Assembly: GCA_902515175.1 (NCBI GenBank)
Contig: CABXTP010000002.1
Location: 1-48,854, forward strand
DNA length: 48,854 bases
Origin: an uncultured Pelagibacteraceae bacterium
GTDB lineage: Bacteria > Pseudomonadota > Alphaproteobacteria > Pelagibacterales > Pelagibacteraceae
Direction: 5' to 3'
Numbering within the stretch: the first letter of the stretch is position 1; every line of letters begins with the position of its first letter. Below the pieces are notes generated by a model. That model did no database searches and was not told the origin of the DNA. It saw only the letters and a list, made by a program, of their open reading frames with translations. A program made the position numbers and the translations under genes. This document shows, one piece after another, positions 42,448 to 46,583 of the stretch.

Positions 42448-43410
42448 ATGAAAATTTTAGCAGTTCAGAGCAGAATGGGTATTGGGGATACCATAATTTA
42501 CCTACCTTTTATTAAGGCTTTATCCAAAAAATTTAATTCACCAATAAGTATATTGGTAAAAGAAAACTCTAAAGCTAATCAATATTTACACCAAACAAAA
42601 TATATAGATAAAATTATTATCTTAGAAAGAGATAATAAAACTAATAATAGACATGGTGGTTTTTTTGGTATTTTTAATTTAGCTAAGGATTTAAAAAAAA
42701 ATAACTTTGATAGAATTTTTATTTTTAATTCATCACTAAGATTTAACATAATTGCAAGAATATCTGGTATTCCAAAAATTTACCAATATCCACTATTAAC
42801 AAAAAACAAACAACACATAACCGAGGTTCCAAAAAAATTCCTAAAATCAAATTTTGATTTAGATGTTGATGAAGATCCTGAGGTACAAATTGATAATGTG
42901 TCAATTTCGAAAGCAGCAAAAGAATTTCAAATAGTCAAGGGTACTACAAATATTCTATTGGGCATAGGTGGCTCTGGACCAACAAAGAGAATTCCTGCAA
43001 AAACTTTTTTAAATGTAATTGATAAAATATCAAATATAAAAAATTGTAAATTTTTTCTTGCAACAGGTAAGGCAAATGAAGAACAGGAAATATTAAATGA
43101 AATTTTGCAGTCTAAATTTAATAATTTATGTACTCGTTTAGATAATTTAACCATTAGTGAAATTTTACCATTAATTAAGAATTGTAATGTATCCATTTGT
43201 AACGACTCGAGCTTTAGTCATTTATCTTCAGCTTTAGGAATTAAAACAATTACTTTAATGGCTGATACTCCTTTGATTTATGGAAATTATAGTACGAAAA
43301 TGTTCCCAATAATTCCAGAAGGAGAAAAAACAGTAACACACAATACTTTAGGTAAAGAAAAAATAGATCCACAAAAAATTTTTGAGAAATTCTTAGAAAT
43401 TACTGACTAA
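42448..43410 (+). CDS. glycosyltransferase family 9 (heptosyltransferase-like)
   Basis: SRMGIGDTIIYLPFIKAL, LGIGGSGPTKRIPAKTF, CNDSSFSHLSSALGIKTI. Confidence 0.87.
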   Translation: MKILAVQSRMGIGDTIIYLPFIKALSKKFNSPISILVKENSKANQYLHQTKYIDKIIILERDNKTNNRHGGFFGIFNLAKDLKKNNFDRIFIFNSSLRFNIIARISGIPKIYQYPLLTKNKQHITEVPKKFLKSNFDLDVDEDPEVQIDNVSISKAAKEFQIVKGTTNILLGIGGSGPTKRIPAKTFLNVIDKISNIKNCKFFLATGKANEEQEILNEILQSKFNNLCTRLDNLTISEILPLIKNCNVSICNDSSFSHLSSALGIKTITLMADTPLIYGNYSTKMFPIIPEGEKTVTHNTLGKEKIDPQKIFEKFLEITD

Positions 43411-43910
43411 GAAATATCGTTTAGTACAATATCTTTTGCTTCATTTACAATTGAGGATAATCTTGAGGTTTCAGGAGAAATATCGGGATGGATCTTTTTT
43501 TGTATTTTAATATATGCTTTATTTACATCTTCTTTAGTGACTTTTCTATTCATATCTAAGTTTAAAATTTTATAAGCCTCTGAAACAGATATTGATGAAA
43601 CGTTGTTAGAGCCTGTCTGATTAAAAGAAAATCTACCAGATCTTCTTAAAGTTTGAATAAGTCTAAAAAGGGAAATTAATTGAAAAATAGACAAACCTTT
43701 TAATTTCAATAAAGCTAAACTTGCTAAAGTTAAAGGTAAAGTTAATAGAAATTTTCCACCAACAGCAAATAAAATCGCTAAAGCAATCAATCCCAATATA
43801 ACTAGAAATCTTAGACCTTTTGATATTTTTTTAGAGGAAATTTTAGTAATAAAACGTAGTAGTAAATAAAAAATGACTAATATGACTACTGTATAAATTA
43901 TTATATTCAT
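43407..43910 (-). CDS. membrane-anchored J-domain protein (DjlA/Tim14-like)
   Basis: N-terminal TM segments; EAYKILNLDMNRKVTKEDVNKAYIKIQKKIHPDIS (HPD). Start set to internal ATG. Confidence 0.85.
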   Translation of the reverse strand: MNIIIYTVVILVIFYLLLRFITKISSKKISKGLRFLVILGLIALAILFAVGGKFLLTLPLTLASLALLKLKGLSIFQLISLFRLIQTLRRSGRFSFNQTGSNNVSSISVSEAYKILNLDMNRKVTKEDVNKAYIKIQKKIHPDISPETSRLSSIVNEAKDIVLNDIS

Positions 43911-43924
43911 ATATTTATATTTTG

Positions 43925-46006
43925 ATGAAAGTACCACAACTTAATAAGAAACCAGAGTTAAAATCTTGTCACAATACAACTTGGGAGGATAATTATAGTT
44001 GGATACACCAAGATAATATTCTTGAAGTTTTAAAAGATAGTTCCAAGCTTCTTCCAGATGTAAGGAAATATCTTGAAGAAGAAAACAATCATACAGAATA
44101 TAATTTAAAAGACACAAAACAATGCCAAAAAATATTATTTGATGAAATTAAGGGTAGAATAAAATTAGATGATGAATCGTTAAAATTTAAAGATAAAGAA
44201 TTTGAATATTGGACTAAAACAACAACAACAGGGAATTACTCAATAAAGTTAAGAAAAAAAATTAGAGGCAACAAAATAGAAGAAATTTGGAATGGTGATG
44301 AAGAAAAAAAAAAATTAAAAACTGAATATTTTGGTGTTGGAGACCTAGAGGTGAGTTACAATGACAAACTTTTAGGTTATTCTTTAGATTTAAAAGGTTC
44401 TGAATATTATACAATTTACATAAGAGATATTTCCTCAGGAAAATTTGTCACTGAAAAAATAGAAGAAACGAGTGGAGGTATTACTTTTAGTTTAGACGAC
44501 AAATATTTTTTTTATTCAAAACTTGATGAATTTCATAGGCCAAGAAAAATATTTAGACACAAAATTGGATCATCGGTCAAAGACGATGAGCTAATTTTTG
44601 AGGAAAAAAGTGAGGCATTTACTGTAGGCATTAGTTTGAGTTCAGATGAAAAATATTTTTTTATAACAACATCAGATCATAATACATCGGAACAATACTA
44701 TTTTGAGGTTTCAGAAAAAAATCCAAAACCAAAATTAATAAAAAAGAGAAAAAAAGGTATAATTTACTCTATAAATTCTTGGGATGAATATTTTTATTGT
44801 CATACCAATGATGGTGCAGAAGATTTCAAAATTGAGAGATGTGATGATTTATCTAATCAAAAATGGAAAATTTATATAGCTGCAAAAGATGAAGTTTTAA
44901 TTGGAGGATTAATATTTTTAAATAATTGGATTATTAGAGGAGAAAAATCAAATGCTTTAGGAAAATTATTTGTAAGAAATAAACAAACAGGGATTGAGGA
45001 GGAATTAAAATTTACTGATGAAACAGTGATTGTGCCTGGTGTTTCATTAATTCAAAGAGATAAAAATACTGACTTGGTCTACTTGTCATACTCATCCCCT
45101 AAAACTCCAGGTAAGGCCTATTTATATAATTTAGAAACAAAAGAAAAAAAATTAGTTAAAGAGCAAGAAATCCCATCTGGTCATAATCCAGATGATTATA
45201 TAGTCGAAAGGCTAGAGTGTCCGTCTCATGATGGAAGATTAGTTCCAATAACAATAACTAGACATAAAAAGACAAAAATTGATGGGTCAGCAAATTTACT
45301 TTTGTATGGTTATGGATCATATGGAAGTTCAATGTCTCCAGATTTTTCCTCAACTAGATTGAGTTTAATTGACAGAAATATTATTTGGGTAACAGCACAT
45401 ATTAGAGGTGGAATGGAAAAAGGGATGAAATGGTGGAAAGAGGGAAAACTTCTTAACAAAAAAAATACATTTGAAGATTATATATATGCTGCAAAATTTT
45501 TAATTGATAAAAAATATACATCAGAAGGGAAAATTATTGGTATGGGTGGCTCAGCTGGTGGTTTATTAATGGGAGCGGTAGTAAATCAATCGCCAGAACT
45601 ATTTCTTGGAATAGTTATGGCTGTGCCGTTTGTTGACTCATTAACAACTAACTTGGACCATTCCTTGCCCTTAACTGTTGGAGAATTTGATGAATTTGGT
45701 AATGCAAAAGATAAAAAAGATCACTTTGATTATATCTACTCCTATGCTCCATATAACAATATAAAAAAAATGGATTACCCTCACATGTTAATTACAACAA
45801 GCTTAAGTGATAATAGAGTATTGTTTGATGAACCAGCAAAATTTACAGCCAAACTTAGAGATTTGAAAACAGATAACAACTTGCTTTTATTAAAAACTGA
45901 GATGAATGCAGGTCACGGAGGTAAGTCAGGTAGAGATGGTGCAATTGAAGAAATAGCTTTTGACTACGCTTTTATTTTAAAGATCTCCGAAAAAATTAAA
46001 ATTTGA
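43925..46006 (+). CDS. S9A prolyl oligopeptidase/oligopeptidase B-like
   Basis: NYSWIHQDN, GYGSYGSSMSPDFSSTRLSL, MGGSAGGLLMG catalytic Ser motif, NAGHGGKSGR. Confidence 0.93.
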   Translation: MKVPQLNKKPELKSCHNTTWEDNYSWIHQDNILEVLKDSSKLLPDVRKYLEEENNHTEYNLKDTKQCQKILFDEIKGRIKLDDESLKFKDKEFEYWTKTTTTGNYSIKLRKKIRGNKIEEIWNGDEEKKKLKTEYFGVGDLEVSYNDKLLGYSLDLKGSEYYTIYIRDISSGKFVTEKIEETSGGITFSLDDKYFFYSKLDEFHRPRKIFRHKIGSSVKDDELIFEEKSEAFTVGISLSSDEKYFFITTSDHNTSEQYYFEVSEKNPKPKLIKKRKKGIIYSINSWDEYFYCHTNDGAEDFKIERCDDLSNQKWKIYIAAKDEVLIGGLIFLNNWIIRGEKSNALGKLFVRNKQTGIEEELKFTDETVIVPGVSLIQRDKNTDLVYLSYSSPKTPGKAYLYNLETKEKKLVKEQEIPSGHNPDDYIVERLECPSHDGRLVPITITRHKKTKIDGSANLLLYGYGSYGSSMSPDFSSTRLSLIDRNIIWVTAHIRGGMEKGMKWWKEGKLLNKKNTFEDYIYAAKFLIDKKYTSEGKIIGMGGSAGGLLMGAVVNQSPELFLGIVMAVPFVDSLTTNLDHSLPLTVGEFDEFGNAKDKKDHFDYIYSYAPYNNIKKMDYPHMLITTSLSDNRVLFDEPAKFTAKLRDLKTDNNLLLLKTEMNAGHGGKSGRDGAIEEIAFDYAFILKISEKIKI

Positions 46007-46009
46007 TAT

Positions 46010-46037
46010 CTTGAAAAAAAACAAATAACACCCATAT
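46010..46037 (+). promoter_or_regulatory. sigma32 (RpoH)-type promoter for hsp20
   Basis: CTTGAAA (46010-46016), 14-nt spacer, CCCATAT (46031-46037): full match to E. coli CTTGAAA-N13-15-CCCATNT. Confidence 0.8.
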
Positions 46038-46040
46038 AAG

Positions 46041-46100
46041 TATTGTTGGTTGCCTAATGGGACTAACAATAAATAAACTTGCTTAACAAAGGAGGATATT
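46041..46100 (+). promoter_or_regulatory. ROSE-like RNA thermometer candidate in hsp20 5'UTR
   Basis: Hairpin 1 TATTGTTGGT/ACTAACAATA (46041-46071). Hairpin 2 CUUGCUU-AACA-AAGGAG (46078-46094) pairs the SD with UUGCU and leaves G46081 bulged. Confidence 0.6.
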
Positions 46101-46547
46101 ATGACAAGTAAGGATTTATCTATATTTAATACCCTAAGACCTTTTTCAATTGGTTTTGACGACATGTTTGACCAATTCGAAAATATGCTTGGTAATGGTT
46201 CTTTGACAATGCAATCAAATTACCCACCATATAACATCAGAAAAACTGGCAGTGATAATTATGCAATAGAAGTTGCATTAGCTGGCTTCAATAAAAAAGA
46301 TGTTGAAGTAGAGTTTGAGGACAAGATATTAACTGTAAAAACAAAACAAGTTAATAAGTCTGATGACAAAAATGACGATGGAGAGATTATTCATAAAGGA
46401 ATATCTCAGAGACAATTTGCAAGATCATTTACAATTGCGGATGATGTGAAAGTTAATGGTGCTGAACTTAAAGATGGTTTGTTAACAATTTCTTGTGAAA
46501 GAGTTGTTCCAGAGCATAAAAAGAAAAAAATTATTGAAATAAAATAA
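46101..46547 (+). CDS. Hsp20/IbpA family small heat shock protein
   Basis: GFDDMFDQFENM, YPPYNIRKTGSDNYAIEVALAGFNKKDVEVEFEDKILTV, alpha-crystallin domain. Confidence 0.95.
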   Translation: MTSKDLSIFNTLRPFSIGFDDMFDQFENMLGNGSLTMQSNYPPYNIRKTGSDNYAIEVALAGFNKKDVEVEFEDKILTVKTKQVNKSDDKNDDGEIIHKGISQRQFARSFTIADDVKVNGAELKDGLLTISCERVVPEHKKKKIIEIK

Positions 46548-46559
46548 TTTATTACCTTA

Positions 46560-46583
46560 CTTGTGGGGGATTTCCCCCACAAG
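46560..46583. terminator. GC-rich hairpin between convergent hsp20 and lipoprotein genes
   Basis: CTTGTGGGGG-ATTT-CCCCCACAAG, perfect 10-bp stem, no strong T tract. Confidence 0.55.

Follow-up and report, generated by a model that had tools for sequence, protein, structure and literature searches.

A compact, conserved ROSE-type leader on hsp20 of SAR11 bacteria and its counterparts in marine phages

The window analyzed here comprises positions 1 to 48,854 (forward strand) of contig CABXTP010000002.1 of assembly GCA_902515175.1, derived from an uncultured Pelagibacteraceae bacterium. On its plus strand, at 46101–46547, it encodes an IbpA-like small heat shock protein of 148 amino acids (hsp20; Pfam HSP20, E = 2.1e-17), which is the only hsp20 copy in the source genome (54% complete). 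In a protein search, the nearest named relatives of this Hsp20 all belong to Pelagibacteraceae or Pelagibacter, in agreement with the SAR11 host guessed in an earlier, sequence-only reading of this DNA. A terminator-like hairpin follows the gene on the same strand (46560–46583) and suggests that hsp20 forms a monocistronic unit. Two genes away, the list of open reading frames contains a minus-strand frame (43407–43937) whose C-terminal segment is DnaJ-like and includes an HPD motif (KIHPDISPE).

Upstream of hsp20 lies a sigma32-type promoter on the plus strand, consisting of the -35 element CTTGAAA (46010–46016) and the -10 element CCCATAT (46031–46037) with a spacer of 14 nt. For comparison, 136 distinct SAR11 hsp20 leaders were compiled from relatives found by protein search: 131 of them score at least 11 out of 14 against CTTGAAA-N-CCCATAT, compared to 2 after shuffling, and the 14-nt spacer is kept in 133. 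Moreover, exactly 7 nt separate the end of the -10 element from the first hairpin of the leader in 122 of the 136 cases, and because of this constant distance the hsp20 transcript probably begins with hairpin 1, the putative start being placed at its 5' base (46043–46045). The same promoter position makes a start 3' of 46078, which had been considered as an objection to the element, unlikely. RpoH is present in 25 of 26 genomes searched, with the incomplete source genome as the sole exception. A sigma32 promoter upstream, which is usual but not obligatory for ROSE elements, is therefore found in SAR11 as well.

The leader itself is 57 nt long (46044–46100) and contains two hairpins, both of which appear in the minimum-energy and the centroid structure predicted by RNAfold for 46044–46110 (-12.7 kcal/mol), in the place where they had been drawn before. 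Hairpin 1 (46044–46068, plus strand) has 10 bp, a bulged G46052, a UAAU loop, and the apical pattern UYGCC-N4-GGGR. Hairpin 2 (46078–46095, plus strand) covers the Shine-Dalgarno (SD) sequence AGGAGG (46090–46095), which it is predicted to mask through UUGCU (46079–46083), i.e., the anti-SD motif U(U/C)GCU of ROSE elements, with G46081 either bulged or opposite G46092. The burial of the SD proposed in the sequence-only reading is thus reproduced by RNAfold, but its exact pairing is not: the register given there (C78–G94, U79–A93, and U80–G92, with G81 bulged) yields only -0.3 kcal/mol at 37°C, compared to -3.1 kcal/mol for the preferred register, in which G81 is mismatched with G92 (C78–G95, U79–G94, U80–A93, C82–G91, U83–A90, and U84–A89). 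The bulged-G81 register is nevertheless the pairing drawn in the Rfam ROSE consensus, so that both registers may interconvert.

Taken by itself, the predicted fold energy is just mildly unusual: 5 of 200 dinucleotide shuffles of 46044–46110 are as stable (z = -2.2), and z-scores are weak evidence at such short length. When the folded segment is extended to 46150, the SD region (46088–46095) is predicted to pair instead with CCUUUUU at about 46138–46144 in the early coding region. This pairing could be a mere by-product of the RPF codons, or it could add a second layer of masking. Because of the mild fold energy and this competing pairing, the significance of the leader rests on conservation and covariation.

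Both are pronounced. UUGCU lies just upstream of the SD in every one of the 136 distinct SAR11 leaders, and hairpin 1 with its UYGCC-loop-GGGR apex is present in all of them, two differing by a single base (CUGCC or GGAG). Covariation is seen in five base pairs beneath the bulge, with GTAAG/CTTAC, GTTGG/CTAAC, GTATG/CATAC, AAAGG/CCTTT, and GTAAA/TTTAC among the examples. On a tree of the coding sequences, 24 inferred double substitutions keep hairpin 1 paired in its true register, compared to 0, 1, 3, 1, and 2 in registers slid by -2, -1, +1, +2, and +3, and the lower stem has a mean of 5.4 consecutive pairs vs. 3.4 after shuffling. The lack of conservation or covariation among relatives that might have spoken against the element is hence ruled out. 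The covariation lies in hairpin 1. With the SD as one of its strands, hairpin 2 hardly varies, and its predicted pairing is backed by conservation rather than by compensatory change. MAFFT-based counts for hairpin 2 (80% of cells paired, partly owing to misalignment) were discarded as unreliable, since the columns misalign the A-run before the SD, and the leaders were re-anchored on the motifs. As in other ROSE elements, the structure lies in the leader of a gene for a small heat-shock protein, the 3'-most hairpin pairs U(U/C)GCU, with its G bulged or mismatched, to the AGGA of the SD (according to the predicted fold and its conservation), and the conserved structure falls within the usual two to four hairpins, with a 5' hairpin before the SD hairpin. 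The SAR11 hsp20 leader is a real, conserved, and compact ROSE-type element.

A covariance model built for the element (R1) matches in 173 of 247 genomes of the family; of the 101 near-complete genomes it matches 92, and the matches span 12 of 14 genera. Eight non-matching near-complete genomes were checked: in seven, no hsp20 was detected, and the remaining one encodes a diverged Hsp20, upstream of which the element is clearly present in a UCGCU form (L568). No second strong copy was found in the 54%-complete source genome. One leader in a SAR11 genome bin (L071, on the 8.2 kb contig G057:C12) stands apart: its hairpin 1 is diverged, its promoter is TTGACA/TATAAT-like, and its Hsp20 is 57% identical to the product of 46101–46547; this contig is probably of phage origin and was binned together with host DNA. 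The scope of the element is much wider than the sequence-only reading saw, as it extends to another family within the same order (f2) and to marine phages. In f2, UUAAUCGCUUAAGGAGGAUUAA lies over the SD, with the UCGCU form of the anti-SD motif. The f2 leaders (L072–L110) have three hairpins, the second of which also carries a bulged G, and their SD hairpin has a perfect UUAAUC/GAUUAA lower stem.

Relatedness to described ROSE elements is evident in the Rfam models. RF00435 matches the SAR11 leader end to end and in register, but with 18.8 bits it stays below the gathering cut-off of 45. Likewise, ROSE_3 (RF02523; cut-off 43) matches the SAR11 leaders L033 and L050 in register with 22–23 bits, and at gathering thresholds Rfam gives no match in SAR11 or f2. 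The sub-cut-off score of RF00435 is an annotation limit and not a biological test: only 1 of 290 alphaproteobacterial genomes reaches the cut-off, while 44 have matches at E-values up to 0.1. Since the threshold misses nearly all alphaproteobacterial ROSE elements, a score below it is not counted against membership. Among the alphaproteobacterial RF00435 matches listed, UUGCU stands beside an SD of the GGAGG or GAGG type, and the alphaproteobacterial elements have the same first hairpin with a bulged G (e.g., GUGAAU-G-CC-AAUU-GG-GUUCAC in L192). The SAR11 leader thus shares the bulged-G hairpin I (GCC-loop-GG) and the UUGCU/AGGA core with rhizobial and other alphaproteobacterial ROSE, but lacks their middle hairpin or hairpins. 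It resembles the ROSE-like element of Pseudomonas ibpA, a working thermometer with the same motif (Krajewski 2013, PMC3669281), which also has a sigma32 promoter, a leader of about 60 nt (61–62 nt), and two hairpins, the second of which sets U(U/C)GCU opposite the SD; a Pseudomonas-type copy in L569 has the same bulged-G hairpin 1 as SAR11. Unlike the Pseudomonas element, the SAR11 element has an AT-rich 5' stem, resides in a SAR11 host, and has a putative thermal role. The element is absent from a 2009 survey of SAR11 RNAs, which used intergenic regions of more than 100 bp (PMC2704228); the region that contains the hsp20 leader measures 94 bp, which may explain the omission.

Beyond bacteria, the exact SAR11 anti-SD/SD string occurs in 68 viral contigs, nearly all with an adjoining Hsp20 gene. 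The first hairpins of these viral leaders are very different in sequence, yet they pair, and the promoter near the string matches is often TATAAATA-like and not of the sigma32 type. In a protein-based, motif-blind collection of 157 distinct viral hsp20 leaders, U(U/C)GCU adjoins the SD in 149, compared to 20 of 339 other genes with an SD on the same viral contigs, and in 129 vs. 7 there is, in addition, a hairpin with a bulged G and 4 or more base pairs. These other genes serve as the control because the last 18 nt retained in shuffled upstream sequences often include part of the motif; the shuffled controls were discarded. The phage collection holds about 500 records with an Hsp20 gene, and leader motifs are present in all 20 that were sampled, including HTVC008M, Mosig, HTVC103P, HTVC115P, P-SSM4, P-HM1, S-RSM4, S-SSM7, Melnitz, and Atu_ph07; one of the 20, Pseudomonas phage Y7, is unverified and may be host DNA. 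Two-hairpin hsp20 leaders occur in pelagiphages, T4-like cyanophages, and a Methylophilales phage. ROSE_3, which matches SAR11 leaders as described above, also matches the leaders of phages Melnitz (34.1 bits, E = 0.001 in a full-Rfam scan) and MED4-213 (29.2 bits) in register, in each case below its cut-off.

A sigma32 promoter upstream is not usual among the phage versions. Atu_ph07 has a sigma32-like hsp20 promoter, while the pelagiphages HTVC103P and HTVC115P use sigma70-type promoters, and most of the viral leaders (L217–L284 and L285–L567) follow promoters that are either of the sigma70 type or resemble TATAAATA (T4-late type). No papers tying phage hsp20 to RNA thermometers were found in the open-access literature, and the extension of the ROSE-type leader to marine phages is apparently unreported and unexpected. 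We consider it probable that marine phages carry ROSE-type switches on their own hsp20, mostly apart from sigma32 and behind phage-type or sigma70-type promoters, such that chaperone synthesis during infection would be gated post-transcriptionally by heat or misfolded protein, and that SAR11 and its phages have one exchangeable riboregulator in common.

The anatomy of the leader, its conservation and stem covariation, its promoter, its strict linkage to hsp20, and its presence in related phages are matters of direct observation; for its function, masking of the SD by a weak hairpin is the best-supported candidate. We are confident that the leader acts as an SD-masking, ROSE-type translational switch. 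In the proposed sequence of events, the sigma32 promoter would start the mRNA at hairpin 1, which might act as a structural clamp that aids the folding of hairpin 2. There, CUUGCUU would pair with AAGGAGG in a weak, G–G-containing helix and thereby block ribosome binding, until warming or protein-folding stress opens the helix and permits translation, presumably as a second, fast layer on top of the sigma32 response. That heat is the direct main trigger seems likely, with somewhat less assurance than the switch itself. In folding models, SD accessibility changes little over 0–42°C. Whole-leader melting curves were dropped as uninformative, because the two registers share the SD, and only relative opening energies were kept. 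At 37°C, opening of the SD is predicted to require 3.6 kcal/mol in SAR11 and 3.1 kcal/mol in phages, compared to 5.0 kcal/mol both in E. coli ibpA and in the ROSE elements of other alphaproteobacteria, and the model half-opening temperature of the SAR11 and phage leaders is about 15–30°C below that of these two references, with both quantities to be taken as relative model values and not as melting points. Within these models, the lower opening energies are consistent with a set point that is lower in hosts from cold water, the direction anticipated in the sequence-only reading, which had argued for a low melting point.

The signal might, however, be misfolded protein instead of temperature, if the leader served mainly as an operator for Hsp20: free Hsp20 would bind the hairpins and repress its own translation, and aggregates would titrate it away. 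A precedent is E. coli IbpA, which binds its own leader and represses itself, with Arg93 being essential and an aromatic residue at position 34 implicated (PMC10474464). The E. coli leader resembles that of SAR11 in placing a U(U/C)GCU anti-SD motif on an IbpA-type gene, and the equivalent of the essential Arg93 is conserved in the SAR11 protein; indeed, Arg93 and an aromatic residue at position 34 are found in SAR11 Hsp20 and in every phage Hsp20 that was sampled. IbpB lacks Arg93. The apex of hairpin 1 is conserved in sequence beyond the needs of SD masking, and the leader is kept in phages without sigma32 promoters, both of which would fit an operator. However, the arginine could be conserved for another reason, and in the literature found, self-binding is demonstrated only in gammaproteobacteria. 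We regard a predominant operator function as possible but on the doubtful side. It can coexist with a thermometer, as heat sensing and self-repression by Hsp20 are compatible with each other.

Readings that dispense with translational gating fare worse. The hairpins could serve mRNA stability, or as a 5' end or ribosome-standby structure, and the probable location of hairpin 1 at the extreme 5' end is indeed reminiscent of stabilizing hairpins. This would leave unexplained why U(U/C)GCU is invariant opposite the SD and why it recurs in f2, in phages, and in other alphaproteobacteria although the hairpin-1 stems differ there, which makes such a role improbable. If an AT-rich leader folded and contained UUGCU by coincidence, this could account for a fold energy only about two standard deviations below shuffles and for the low Rfam score, but not for the conservation, the covariation, and the linkage to hsp20; because of the covariation, we consider chance as already refuted. 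SD masking thus remains the reading that we prefer.

SAR11 bacteria are among the most abundant cell groups in the ocean and have very few regulators. A translational stress switch on their Hsp20 would provide a testable handle on how these cells perceive warming or damaged proteins. Still more surprising are the copies in phages, which allow testing whether viruses gate chaperone output by temperature or by folding load. Moreover, the phage leaders supply natural ROSE variants in large number, with 5' hairpins that covary cleanly, and could help to resolve the role of the 5' hairpin and whether heat or the chaperone is the primary signal of ROSE elements.
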